Shown here one piece after another: positions 17,621-22,553 of a stretch of 64,000 nucleotides of DNA. Source of the DNA: Butyrivibrio sp. (GTDB lineage: Bacteria > Bacillota > Clostridia > Lachnospirales > Lachnospiraceae); NCBI RefSeq assembly GCF_017433805.1, contig NZ_JAFRGN010000007.1, positions 186,001 through 250,000 of the forward strand, written 5' to 3'. The translations under genes and the position numbers were made by a program. The notes under the pieces are model-generated. The model was not told where the DNA came from. It did not search any database and saw only the letters and a program-made list of their open reading frames with translations. Positions within the stretch are counted from its first letter, which is position 1. Every line of letters starts with the position of its first letter.

Positions 17621-18607
17621 ATGAGTACAAGAATCGGAATTTTGGGATATGGTAACCTCGGTAGAGGCGTTGAACTTGCTGTTAAAGAAGCACCTGATAT
17701 GGAGCTTGTAGCAGTTTTTACTAGAAGAGATCCTTCTACACTTACAATTCAGACTGCAGGCGTTCCTGTTGTATCAGTTAACGATGTAGCTGATTGGAAG
17801 GACAAGATTGATGTAATGATTCTCTGCGGCGGAAGTGCTACAGACCTTCCTACACAGACTCCTGAATATGCTAAGCTTTTCAATGTAGTTGATAGCTTTG
17901 ATACTCACGCAAGAATTCCTGAGCACTTTGCTAACGTTGATGCAGCAGCTAAAGAGGCTGGCAAGATCGCAGTTATCTCATGTGGCTGGGATCCTGGAAT
18001 GTTCTCACTTGCAAGAGTTTATTCTAACGCTATTCTTCCAGATGGTAACGACTACACATTCTGGGGCAAGGGCGTTTCACAGGGACATTCAGATGCAATC
18101 CGTCGTATCAAGGGTGTCAAGAATGCCAAGCAGTACACAATTCCTGTTGATGCAGCTCTCGAGGCAGTTAGAAGTGGTCAGAATCCTGAGCTTACAACAC
18201 GCCAGAAGCACACAAGAGAATGCTTTGTAGTTCTTGAGGACGGCGCAGATGCAGCAGCTGTAGAAAAAGAGATCAAAGAAATGCCTAACTACTTCGCAGA
18301 CTACGACACAACAGTTCATTTCATCAGCGAGGAAGAGCTTCTTACAAACCACAGCGGAATGGCTCACGGCGGTTTCGTATTCAGAAGTGGTAAGACAGGT
18401 GCCAACAAAGAGCACAACCACATCATTGAGTACAGCCTCAAGCTTGATTCCAACCCAGAGTTCACAACAAGCGTTCTTGTTGCAGTTGCCAGAGCAGCTA
18501 AGAGAATGCAGGATGAGGGTATGAAGGGCTGCAAGACAATCCTTGATATTCCACCAGCATATCTTTCAGATAAGAGCGGCGAAGAGCTTAGAGCTCATCT
18601 TCTTTAA
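17621..18607 (+). CDS. ddh: meso-Diaminopimelate D-dehydrogenase
   Basis: A 328-residue cytosolic NADPH-dependent enzyme that makes meso-diaminopimelate from tetrahydrodipicolinate and ammonia in one step, feeding lysine and peptidoglycan synthesis. The N-terminal Rossmann motif is GILGYGNLGRGVE. The family stretches VFTRRDPS, CGGSATDLPTQTPEYAKLFN, DSFDTHARIPEHF, ISCGWDPGMFSLARVY and WGKGVSQGHSDAIRRI are all present. The length matches the family (about 325). GGAGG lies upstream of the ATG, with its own extended -10 promoter and terminator, so it is probably monocistronic. Confidence 0.97.
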   Translation: MSTRIGILGYGNLGRGVELAVKEAPDMELVAVFTRRDPSTLTIQTAGVPVVSVNDVADWKDKIDVMILCGGSATDLPTQTPEYAKLFNVVDSFDTHARIPEHFANVDAAAKEAGKIAVISCGWDPGMFSLARVYSNAILPDGNDYTFWGKGVSQGHSDAIRRIKGVKNAKQYTIPVDAALEAVRSGQNPELTTRQKHTRECFVVLEDGADAAAVEKEIKEMPNYFADYDTTVHFISEEELLTNHSGMAHGGFVFRSGKTGANKEHNHIIEYSLKLDSNPEFTTSVLVAVARAAKRMQDEGMKGCKTILDIPPAYLSDKSGEELRAHLL

Positions 18608-18629
18608 TAAATACTTATTAGCAATTTTC

Positions 18630-18663
18630 AAGACACCTATGCAAATGCATGGGTGTCTTTTTG
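18630..18663 (+). terminator. Terminator of ddh
   Basis: GACACCTATGC pairs with GCATGGGTGTC around a four-base loop with one wobble, followed by a T-run. Confidence 0.9.
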
Positions 18664-18756
18664 TGTGCCGAACTGATATACTAATTTATGCTGGTCGAGA
18701 ATTTTGTATATGTATTAGGGGGACCAGTTTTTTGTGCATATACATGGGAGGTTACA

Positions 18757-19716
18757 ATGTCACAAGTTAAGTTTCATTTACCGGGGTTACGTTACAATTT
18801 CCCCCTGAACATGTTCTGGCTGAACATGATGAAGCAGTATCCACATTATTTCAGAGAAGGTGTTGAGATTGCTTCTTTCTTCGGTTGTTTCCCATTCTCT
18901 CTTTGGAATGGCGGACGACTCATTTCAGATGATCAGTGCGATGCAGGCTTTGTTAAGCACGTCATCAGCAGCATTAACGCTCAGGGTATTCCTGTTCGTT
19001 TCACTTTCACAAATCCGCTTATTAAGGAAGAGGATCTTGATGATGAATTCTGCAATTTCTGCATGAAGGCTGGAGATAACGGCAAGAACGAGGTCCTTGT
19101 CTTTTCACCAATACTGGAAGAATACATCCGCAAGAACTATCCTTCCTACAAGATAGATTCCACAACCTGCAAAGAGATCAGGGATGTGGATACTCTTAAC
19201 AAAGAGCTCGAGAAGTACTACAAATACGTAGTTCTTGATTACAACATGAACAATCAGTTGGATATAATTGAGAATCTGGACCACAAAGAGAAACTCGAGG
19301 TACTGATAAACGCTCTCTGCGTTCCTAACTGTAAGAGACGTGGCGATCACTACAAGAACATCGCCCTTAACCAGGAGATCATGAAGGAGAACAGAACTCT
19401 TCCTCCTGAAAAGAGAAAGCACATCATTCCTTGGACCTGCGAGTACGGAGATAAGAACAATCTCTACACCATCCAGGATTACTGCACTTTCGTTTCTCCA
19501 GAGCTTATCTGGGAGAAATATGTTCCAATGGGAATCAATAACTTCAAGATCGAGGGTAGAACAGCTAACCTCTTCTCTCTCATTGAGACCTATTGTTTCT
19601 TTATGATCAAGCCTGAGTATGTTGGAGAGGCCAGACTCCTTCTCCTTCATAACCTTGAAAAGAATCATTTCATCCAGGTCAACAAGCCAAGACCAGGAGT
19701 ATTCAAACCTGAATAA
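18757..19716 (+). CDS. U32-peptidase-like protein of unknown function
   Basis: A 319-residue soluble protein. The ATG at 18757 has GGGAGG five bases upstream; an in-frame ATG at 18688 would add 23 residues without a ribosome site. I do not recognise a close family, but NFKIEGRTAN near the C-terminus resembles the KIEGR element of U32-type TIM-barrel proteins, and Cys residues in NFCMKAG, CVPNCKRRGDHY, PWTCEYG and DYCTFVS could bind a metal or cluster. U32 relatives act in tRNA/rRNA hydroxylation, ubiquinone synthesis or proteolysis; no specific activity is claimed. It stands alone after ddh and is followed by the inverted-repeat array. Confidence 0.55.
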   Translation: MSQVKFHLPGLRYNFPLNMFWLNMMKQYPHYFREGVEIASFFGCFPFSLWNGGRLISDDQCDAGFVKHVISSINAQGIPVRFTFTNPLIKEEDLDDEFCNFCMKAGDNGKNEVLVFSPILEEYIRKNYPSYKIDSTTCKEIRDVDTLNKELEKYYKYVVLDYNMNNQLDIIENLDHKEKLEVLINALCVPNCKRRGDHYKNIALNQEIMKENRTLPPEKRKHIIPWTCEYGDKNNLYTIQDYCTFVSPELIWEKYVPMGINNFKIEGRTANLFSLIETYCFFMIKPEYVGEARLLLLHNLEKNHFIQVNKPRPGVFKPE

Positions 19717-19719
19717 TCA

Positions 19720-19964
19720 TTTACCGTTTTTTACATAAAACCTCATTTGCGGTAAAAGAATTAGCCCCTTGATCTTAGATACTTTTACCGCATTCTTGGC
19801 AAAGATAATTTTACGGTAAAAAAAATGATAGAAAAGAAAGATTGATATATAAATATCTTTACCGCATGCTAGGCGAAATCTATATTGCGGTAAAATAAAG
19901 AATAATTATTATAAAAAAACTTTACCGCATCATATGTAATACTAAATTTGCGGTAAAGTTTTTT
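19720..19964. repeat. Four-unit array of inverted repeats TTTACCG-N23-CGGTAAA
   Basis: Half-sites TTTACCG start at 19720, 19784, 19858 and 19921; CGGTAAA start at 19750, 19814, 19888 and 19951. The distance inside each unit is exactly 30 bases in all four, although the 23-base centres differ. Three of four units extend to TTTACCGCAT, and three of four end in TGCGGTAAA. Gaps between units are 34, 44 and 33 bases (start of CGGTAAA to next TTTACCG). The last unit is flanked by A and T runs and should act as a bidirectional terminator for the convergent genes on either side. The purpose of the other three units is unknown. Confidence 0.9.
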
Positions 19965-20003
19965 TATCGGATGCTCTATTTGCCTCTACAAATATTGCAT
20001 TTA

Positions 20004-20279
20004 TCAGGATTCTTTTCCATTTACTACACTCAGTTTTCTATCTCGTAATATAAGCGCTTCCTTCTGCGCTCTGGTCATCTGCTTGATATGCCACTCACGG
20101 CTCATGGCTTCTTCCTTGGTATCAAACTCTTCGCGATAAACAAGTTTCACGGGAAGCCTTACCCTGGTGTACTTTCCGCCCTTACCAGCATTATGCGCAG
20201 CAACTCTTTTCTCCAGATCATTGGTCCAGCCGCAGTAAAATGTGCCATCTGCACATTCTAATATATATGTGTAATTCAC
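20004..20279 (-). CDS. GIY-YIG domain protein, UPF0213/YhbQ type
   Basis: A 91-residue single-domain protein with [19 protein letters not shown] (GIY-YIG core as YIL/YCG), Arg in EKRVAAHN, and the helix [18 protein letters not shown] typical of the short YhbQ/YazA group. The family fold is a nuclease fold; some members are reported to act on structured or single-stranded DNA, but the cellular role is poorly defined. It ends at the right border of the inverted-repeat array, which terminates it. Confidence 0.9.
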
Positions 20280-20333
20280 TTGATCTTCCTCTTACTATCT
20301 ACACACATTCGCCAATTACTTTTGGGTAATAAT

Positions 20334-22553
20334 TTACACCAACTCAAATTCTGCTTCGTTTTCTGTAGCGCTGTCTAAGCCTATAAATACCTTGAACTTT
20401 CCAGCTTCGCTTTCAAATCTGTTTGAAGCAGTCCAGAATTTCAGCATTTCCTCTGTGATTTCGAATGAAACCTGAGAATTCTCTCCTGGTCCGAGGGATA
20501 CTTTCTTAAAGCCTTTCAGCTCCTTGATTGGCCTGACTACACTGCCTGCCATGTCGCGAATATAGAGCTGAACAGTCTGGGTTGCTGCATAAGCGCCTGT
20601 ATTCTTTATTTCTACAGATGCAATGGCTTTGTCAGAAGCGCTACTTCCTCTTGTAATACTTGTTTTATCCAATTTCACCTCAGAAATCTCAAACTCCGAA
20701 TATGTAAGTCCGAATCCGAATGGATATCTTGCTTCATTTGGGCAATCAAGATATCTTGAGGTAAATATTGATGCTCCTTCAAAAGGCTTTGGTCTTCCTG
20801 TATTGAATCTGTTGTAGTATAAAGGTTCCTGGCCTACAGTCCATGGGAAACTCATAGGAAGCTTTCCCTGTGGTGAGGTCTTTCCAGTAAGGACATCTAC
20901 TATTCCGTGTCCACTCTCAGTTCCAGGTCTCCAACAGATAAGGAGCGCATCAGATACCTCTGGAATATCCCCGAGATCAAGTGGTCTTCCTGTGAAGATA
21001 AGAGTAATAAGCTTCTTGCCTTTTTCTTTTACCTTGCCAAAAAGCTCCAGTTGAACCTGAGGAAGAGTTATCTTTGCTCTACTTGTAGACTCTCCGGACT
21101 GCATGAGACTTTCTCCAAGACACATGATTATCGTGTCACACTCATCCGCAATCTCAAGAGCTTCTTTCATGAGTCTGTCATTGTCTTCTCTAAAAGTATC
21201 CGAATGGAATTTCAAAAAGCCAAGGTCTGAATCATTGTCTACCATAAGGCTTCCATTGGAATATTTGACCTCTACATCACTTCCTGCAAACTCTTCTTCA
21301 AAAGCCTGCCTCAAGGTAATGTTATTTTCCTTGTTACATGTGATAGCCCAGGCACTATGTGTATCTTTATCATCAACATATGGACCGATAAGCGCAATCT
21401 TTTTGCTACTAAGAGGAAGTGTTCCTTCTTTGTTCTCCAAAAGAACAAGCGATTTTCTCACAGCATCCCTTGCCTTTTCTCTGCTGTCTTTTGAAAGTGT
21501 GATCTCTTTATATCTCTCTTCCGAAGCGCCATGATACGGATCTTCAAAAAGTCCAAGGTCATTTTTAAGCTCGAGAACACGCATTACAGCTTTATCCAAA
21601 AGAGCTTCAGAAACCCTACCTTCCTTGATTAAAGCCTCAAGACTTCCGCTGTAGCTTTCTGTACACATGTCTATGTCTACGCCTGCATCCATTGCCAGTG
21701 CAGCTGCTTCCTTGAGGTCCTGAGCAAAGCCCCAGTTCACCATCTCAGCAATAGCAGCCCAGTCAGAAATAAGAACGCCATCAAATCCCATCTCATCCCT
21801 TAAAACATCTCTCATGAGCCACTTATTTCCTGATGAAGGGATTCCGTTTAATGTGTTAAAAGAGGTCATAACAAGACGGGCACCCTCACTAATAGGCAAT
21901 CTGTAGCCCTGCAGATACTGATCTCTTAGTGTGTGTTCAGATATTTCGCAGGTATTATAATCACGTCCTGCCTCTGCTGCACCATAGGCAGCAAAATGCT
22001 TAACACAGGCTGCCACATGCTCTTTATCTGCTATAGAATCTCCCTGATAGCCCTTGACCATGGCTGCAGTCATAAGACCATTAAGATATGGATCTTCTCC
22101 AGTGGATTCAACAACTCTTCCCCATCTTGCATCTCTTACAAGGTCTGCCATTGGAGAAAAAGTAACCTGAACTCCATCAGCTGCTGCCTCTTTAGCCTGC
22201 ACCTGCGCTCCTACTCTGGCTACTTCAGGATCAAAGGTTGCACCCTGGGCCAGCGGACAAGGAAAAACAGTATCGTGTCCGTGAATAACATCAAGCATAA
22301 ACATAAGAGGAATATGGTGAGGATGATTTTCCATATATTCCTTCTGAATTGCCTTTATCTTATCTGCCCCGTGAAGGCCCAAAACACTTCCAGCTAGGCT
22401 CTTCATCTTTTTAGCCTTTTCCATGTCAGCAAGACCTGTAACCGCGGCAGTTTCCTCAAAGGTTTGTCCTGGAAGCTGCACCAGCTGCATTATCTTTTCC
22501 TCAAGGGACATATCATTTAACAGTGCCTGTAAATCCTCTTTTTTCATAATCAT
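20334..22553 (-). CDS. GH3 beta-glucosidase/beta-xylosidase
   Basis: A 739-residue cytosolic GH3 enzyme without signal peptide. The N-terminal barrel holds GVQVTFSPMADLVRDARWGR and ESTGEDPYLNGLMTAAMVKG, then the nucleophile Asp264 in VLISDWAAI. The second domain carries LIGPYVDD, CLGESLMQSGESTSRA and ALLICWRPGTESGHGIVDVL, and a C-terminal FnIII-like domain closes with FKVFIGLDSATENEAEF. The start overlaps the HAD stop (ATGA at 22550-22553); a second ATG six bases inside has better spacing from GGGGTGA. It hydrolyses terminal beta-linked glucose or xylose from imported oligosaccharides. The exact sugar is not deducible. Confidence 0.95.
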   Translation of the reverse strand: MIMKKEDLQALLNDMSLEEKIMQLVQLPGQTFEETAAVTGLADMEKAKKMKSLAGSVLGLHGADKIKAIQKEYMENHPHHIPLMFMLDVIHGHDTVFPCPLAQGATFDPEVARVGAQVQAKEAAADGVQVTFSPMADLVRDARWGRVVESTGEDPYLNGLMTAAMVKGYQGDSIADKEHVAACVKHFAAYGAAEAGRDYNTCEISEHTLRDQYLQGYRLPISEGARLVMTSFNTLNGIPSSGNKWLMRDVLRDEMGFDGVLISDWAAIAEMVNWGFAQDLKEAAALAMDAGVDIDMCTESYSGSLEALIKEGRVSEALLDKAVMRVLELKNDLGLFEDPYHGASEERYKEITLSKDSREKARDAVRKSLVLLENKEGTLPLSSKKIALIGPYVDDKDTHSAWAITCNKENNITLRQAFEEEFAGSDVEVKYSNGSLMVDNDSDLGFLKFHSDTFREDNDRLMKEALEIADECDTIIMCLGESLMQSGESTSRAKITLPQVQLELFGKVKEKGKKLITLIFTGRPLDLGDIPEVSDALLICWRPGTESGHGIVDVLTGKTSPQGKLPMSFPWTVGQEPLYYNRFNTGRPKPFEGASIFTSRYLDCPNEARYPFGFGLTYSEFEISEVKLDKTSITRGSSASDKAIASVEIKNTGAYAATQTVQLYIRDMAGSVVRPIKELKGFKKVSLGPGENSQVSFEITEEMLKFWTASNRFESEAGKFKVFIGLDSATENEAEFELV

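Follow-up and report, generated by a model that had tools for sequence, protein, structure and literature searches.

A stretch of 64,000 nucleotides from the Butyrivibrio sp. assembly GCF_017433805.1 (contig NZ_JAFRGN010000007.1, positions 186,001 to 250,000; hereafter the window) carries an array of inverted repeats at positions 19720–19964. The array lies between two convergent genes, one encoding a protein of 342 amino acids (aa) without a Pfam match (18688–19716, + strand) and the other a GIY-YIG domain protein (20004–20279, − strand; PF01541, E = 3.3e-21). It consists of four exact matches to TTTACCG-N23-CGGTAAA. The 23-base spacer was found in 4/4 units although the search pattern permitted N15–35, the start of TTTACCG is 30 bases from the start of CGGTAAA in every unit, and the pattern had no match in 100 dinucleotide shuffles of the window. 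A first-pass annotation, made from the sequence alone, had described both the fixed geometry and the convergent genes, and these descriptions stand. The units follow each other with periods of 64, 74 and 63 base pairs (bp), the 74-bp step being one helical turn longer, as had also been noted. The gaps of 34, 44 and 33 given in that annotation are right as distances from the start of CGGTAAA to the start of the next TTTACCG, but the bases that separate the units number 27, 37 and 26.

The half-site is conserved over 9 bp as TTTACCG[C/T]A, which fits seven of the eight copies; the exception is the first, TTTACCGTT. Unit 1 (19720–19756) pairs TTTACCGTT on the + strand (19720) with TTTACCGCA on the − strand (19748–19756), unit 2 (19784–19820) has TTTACCGCA on the + strand and TTTACCGTA on the − strand, and units 3 (19858–19894, preceded by the longer linker) and 4 (19921–19957) have TTTACCGCA on both. 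The units as such have no strand.

The genome-wide pattern search proposed in the annotation returned two further TTTACCG arrays with the same pair geometry in the source genome (3.45 Mb in 74 contigs). One, on contig C46, has three exact units and a degenerate one and also lies between convergent genes, and the other, on contig C67, has five units with an exact 64-bp period. A single stray pair on contig C33 has N22 and looks like chance. Among 79 genomes of the genus, TTTACCG arrays were present only in the source genome; the other matches listed were isolated pairs with scattered spacing. An intact gene of 272 aa (C67:29522–30337) begins ≈140 bp downstream of the five-unit array and, with the same half-site upstream, is the likely source-genome cognate of the window array.

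The 272-aa protein had no significant match in Pfam or NCBIfam. The C-terminal half resembles a PD-(D/E)XK nuclease of the VSR/homing-endonuclease type: the core fold and conserved acidic residues of this superfamily are present in the linked family (the position of the classical-motif lysine was not established), and the nuclease residues are invariant in 119/119 homologues. Foldseek alone gave no match at E 0.001, and a sequence search of solved structures gave nothing below E 0.35. In sequence, the domain is closest to the C-terminus of the candidate defence proteins PDC-S68, and residues 1–120 had generic helical matches only. An empty-site comparison at the C67 gene locus found the flanks rearranged in genomes G006 and G064. 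The annotation had suggested a linked DNA-binding protein or a transposase like the repetitive extragenic palindrome (REP)-associated tyrosine transposases (RAYTs). A dedicated gene family does lie beside the arrays, but it looks like PD-(D/E)XK proteins and not like RAYT; Pfam gave no Y1/HUH match in the family, and a genome-wide RAYT search was not made.

Homologues of the gene were collected at 130 loci, including related species, and represent 119 distinct genes. Their surroundings were scanned, with the gene masked, for a single 8-mer that formed three or more inverted pairs at a uniform spacing, with a tolerance of one mismatch. An array was detected at 79/119 homologue loci and in 0/119 shuffles. 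Of 139 control loci, 11 were positive, but eight of these had been retrieved with the array pattern and L057 was already known to be an array; excluding these nine leaves 2/130 unrelated loci. A stricter count of exact 6-mers (at least three) was positive at 56/119 loci, against 0/357 shuffles and 0/108 unrelated loci. The array was upstream of the gene at 68 of the 79 loci, at a median of 107.5 bp from the profile hit. The scan missed at least one array, since L231 has CACCGA/TCGGTG repeats when inspected by eye. Half-sites vary from locus to locus and fall into ≈48 classes, a number that depends on the similarity cut-off; low-complexity, palindromic or poorly defined consensus rows (e.g., L200, L214, L224, L256 and L297) were kept in the counts. 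L217 has a compound array (≈349–985) in which periods of 74 and 64 bp alternate and 21 half-sites were called.

The modal periods of 71 gene-linked arrays cluster at ≈53, 64, 74.5, 84.5 and 95 bp, with a few outliers (47, 56). Against a uniform null, the best modulus was 10.4 bp for the 71 arrays (R = 0.862; 0/20000) and 10.45 bp for 42 distinct half-site classes (R = 0.855; 0/20000). Such quantisation is expected of sites that share one face of B-DNA, whereas RNA hairpins need none. The annotation had counted variable spacing as evidence against its proposal; the spacing does vary between arrays, yet in steps of ≈10.5 bp, and protein recognition in helical register, which it had put forward, is well supported. 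Its other suggestion, a constrained hairpin family of the REPIN kind, was not: 82 half-site pairs of three half-site types showed 46 one-sided and 2 compensatory changes, with ≈3 compensatory changes expected by shuffling. When the TTATCCGCA pairs, 22 in number and read over the long spacing, were left out, 36 one-sided changes and 1 compensatory change remained in 60 pairs. The periods speak strongly for a protein that reads the half-sites on a fixed helical face, and with alternating half-sites on one face, protomers could assemble along double-stranded DNA.

Over all protein pairs of less than 70% identity, the correlation between protein identity and half-site similarity was 0.086 (1/2000), small but above chance. 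In 316 pairs of 45–90% identity (68 proteins), the partial correlation of half-site similarity was 0.456 with identity over residues 28–80, a value matched by 0/2000 label permutations, and −0.031 and −0.035 with identity over the nuclease domain and residues 81–130, respectively. The comparison supports the N-terminal β-hairpin/helix region (residues ≈28–80) as the part of the protein that goes with the 8–9 bp half-site. L205 and L294, for example, share 88% of the nuclease domain and 38% of residues 28–80, and have unrelated half-sites. At the DNA level, identity is mostly 75–95% in the outer flanks and the C-terminal halves but 40–58% across the array and first ≈135 codons; L216 and L294 show the same pattern. 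Five of 27 allelic pairs had different half-sites on both sides. The array region was mostly unaligned in 5/5 (coverage 0 to 0.33), and the N-terminal half was unaligned in two pairs (both with L294) and aligned in three (L219/L226, L226/L289 and L199/L204). Full joint replacement of array and N-terminal domain is thus observed at one locus group only; at two other locus groups the array was replaced, and the N-terminal half has diverged but can be aligned. With that scope, the comparison supports a coupled change of array and recognition domain between alleles.

Dispersal was followed for three half-sites. Exact pairs of TTACCTGCA numbered 53 in G003 and 21 in its sister species G065, and the reversed control gave 0. 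From the places listed for 50 of the 53 exact pairs, 12 arrays were read in G003 with one mismatch allowed. Nine of them overlap no picked reading frame, and three overlap frames of 100, 174 and 179 aa that we regard as spurious. The nuclease gene is flanked by two of the 12, one of which is separated from it by another gene. Five arrays common to G003 and G065 differ in unit number each time (5/4, 6/4, 4/8, 6/5 and 9/4); both assemblies are drafts, in which repeats can be collapsed. With half-sites as defined in G003 only, the four dispersed arrays common to both genomes differed at 3/378 half-site positions and at 192/1029 other array positions; when the gene-linked locus was added, the figures were 6/539 for half-sites, 269/1498 for other array positions and 2030/29204 for the flanks. 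The comparison supports strong constraint on the half-sites at dispersed arrays. The orientation context of 31 arrays (longest open reading frames picked; L171, L187–L189 and the G065 copies left out) was convergent for 11, co-directional for 17 and divergent for 3.

A second half-site, TTAGCCGCA, forms arrays at seven places with spacings of 28 and 36–37 (a generic alternating CCGCA pattern). One of its arrays in the source genome adjoins a nuclease-gene copy disrupted by stops (G000:C57:177946–178601, L175), of which G006 has an intact version (L184). Seventeen TTAGCCGCA half-sites are found at L174:7244–7797 and seven at L185:7092–7293, which seem to be one intergenic position in two species; the units are nearly alike, which perhaps reflects a recent tandem change. 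In B. proteoclasticus P6B7 (L057, G079/G007), the TTATCCGCA arrays were considered as drifted TTTACCGCA, and this was ruled out by the opposite polarity in the spacing. Read inward, TTATCCGCA is TGCGGATAA, which is near the TACGGATAA of L211/L215 and has the same 75-bp period. By eye, the short linkers of TGCGGATAA/TTATCCGCA arrays in G079 (L178–L183, e.g., L179:7460–7764) often hold a central TGATTCA/TGAATCA.

The gene family was found in 127/397 sampled Lachnospiraceae genomes, with several nuclease paralogues per genome. A sample of the phylum gave matches in 18/398 genomes, of which five were full-length, all from the family of the source genome; the remaining 13 covered mainly the C-terminal domain, 8/13 in reading frames of at least 656 aa. 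At L357–L369 of this sample, which belong to other families, a similar nuclease domain forms part of long reading frames of up to 1269 aa, an arrangement also found in PDC-S68. The plasmid collection held no relative of one protein query, phage records gave two weak partial matches, and nine loci on viral contigs matched over residues ≈131–253 only.

The gene pair that flanks the window array also occurs, without an array, in G006 and G043. The GIY-YIG protein was ruled out as the partner on this ground, and we take its gene as a bystander because it is present also where the array is absent. The census found no close homologue of the C67 gene in G006 or G043: the best G006 match is 55% identical and belongs to the gene adjoining the TTAGCCGCA array of that genome, and the G043 matches are 32–35% identical. 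One scan for relatives of the 342-aa protein gave 240, and the best 80 of these 240 bear mostly Lachnospiraceae names. Unit 4 of the window array sits inside a 19-bp perfect inverted repeat with A/T tracts (19911–19967) and may have an additional role as a bidirectional terminator. A terminator scan found none in the window array, but allowed loops of 3–8 bases only, so that the 19-base loop of unit 4 was undetectable. An Rfam scan of 18000–22000 gave sub-threshold matches only (BSnc120 and mir-8186, at 18611–18689 and 19907–19972), far below the gathering scores and taken as chance, and the query DNA had no match in the plasmid DNA collection.

The explanation that best fits these observations, to which we assign a probability of roughly 70%, is that a dedicated sequence-specific nuclease has a binding array of which the window holds a dispersed copy, without the gene. 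The protein would bind its own upstream array, giving autoregulation, and assemble along the DNA; the conserved nuclease domain would nick or cut the array, and repair of the cut would alter the unit number and seed new intergenic arrays. The whole would work like a REP–RAYT system built on an unrelated enzyme. We also lean towards a previously undescribed, Lachnospiraceae-centred class of nuclease and array, in which a replaceable N-terminal domain would read its own 8–9 bp half-site and assemble on helically phased alternating arrays, with array and domain forming a specificity cassette that changes as one. Several observations count against this explanation. No array was detected at 40/119 homologue loci, and the interiors of different arrays are only weakly similar. 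The TTAGCCGCA arrays persist in the source genome, in which the nuclease gene is disrupted. For the TGCGGATAA/TTATCCGCA arrays of G007/G079, 11 matches yielded no cognate gene; these are therefore orphan arrays and were not counted toward cognate pairing.

The linked protein might instead serve the host by binding the arrays as nucleoprotein road-blocks, terminators or insulators, with nuclease activity secondary. Constraint on the half-sites at stable loci, with drift in the intervening DNA, the mixed orientation of the 31 arrays and the terminator-like unit 4 would all suit such a use; we nevertheless hold it to be unlikely in view of the invariance of the nuclease residues, the absence of the array between the same gene pair in related species, and the arrays whose cognate genes are broken or were not found. 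A defence or conflict system, in which the nuclease would act against invading DNA under titration or control by the arrays, and parasite pressure would change the specificity as in type I restriction HsdS, is improbable: the flanking genes showed no evident modification enzyme (no specific search was made), the chromosome itself bears the sites, and the plasmid, phage and viral searches yielded no relative of the one query or partial matches. The resemblance to PDC-S68, the change of array and recognition domain between alleles, and the multiple paralogues do speak for it.

That an unlinked DNA-binding protein reads the half-sites, the nuclease genes merely being near the arrays, would explain the orphan arrays, but it is very improbable beside the linkage at 79/119 loci, the covariation of half-site with residues 28–80 of the linked protein, and the exchange of the array together with the N-terminal half at one locus group. 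RNA or single-strand hairpins, whether as terminators, type III toxin–antitoxin RNA or REPIN-like elements, are likewise very improbable: the pairs are inverted repeats that could pair, and most arrays lie upstream of the nuclease gene, but the excess of one-sided changes, the 10.4-bp quantisation and the sub-threshold Rfam scores all oppose them.

The RAYT features used for comparison come from two published accounts (PMC3116915, PMC3733652). REP/REPIN elements with their RAYT (TnpA-REP), including REPtrons, are likewise short inverted elements dispersed in intergenic DNA with a dedicated nuclease gene beside its cognate elements, an arrangement seen here for the three half-sites followed, and several gene/element pairs, each with its own sequence, can likewise occur in one genome. 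However, the linked enzyme matches PD-(D/E)XK proteins and not an HUH/Y1 (IS200/IS605-type) transposase, and the consensuses by eye share no GTAG or CGTC palindrome tag, these motifs occurring only within single classes (e.g., L274 and L311) and being absent from TTTACCGCA and TTAGCCGCA. Recognition of a single-stranded hairpin also seems not to apply, given compensatory changes not beyond chance and half-sites of 8–9 bp in helical phase. Judged from sequence, the system resembles REP–RAYT in organisation and lacks its defining features.

Compared with EDxHD/VSR-like homing endonucleases such as I-Bth0305I, a recognition-site array is kept beside the gene, a separate N-terminal helix/β-hairpin/helix region goes with specificity, and neither an intron nor an intein came to notice at these loci, though no dedicated search was made; array-free sites exist, none shown as an intact cut site. 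In type I restriction, the target-recognition domain of HsdS can likewise be replaced while the rest of the locus is kept, as at one locus group here, but here the target array changes with the domain, and no HsdM or HsdR was noticed among nearby genes. Bacterial interspersed mosaic elements (BIMEs), which are alternating REP arrays, also have alternating orientation, variable unit number and intergenic location; the arrays here differ in having no REP palindrome, a linked dedicated nuclease and helical-repeat-quantised periods. Type III toxin–antitoxin loci have tandem RNA repeats upstream of a toxin nuclease, and the upstream position fits, but neither the inversion and helical phasing of the repeats nor the dispersed copies without a gene agree with such loci.

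In the portions of the literature searched, we found no described system that joins these features, nor this repeat family, and the arrays are apparently an undescribed large family in gut and rumen bacteria. If our explanation is correct, they would represent a second, independently evolved solution to the REP–RAYT arrangement, with a restriction-like nuclease that maintains arrays of its own binding sites and perhaps also spreads them. It would provide dozens of natural matched protein/DNA pairs in which DNA recognition and its evolution are directly testable, and the ≈48 half-site classes matched to proteins could allow a DNA-recognition code to be derived. It would also account for a repeat family of rumen and gut bacteria.
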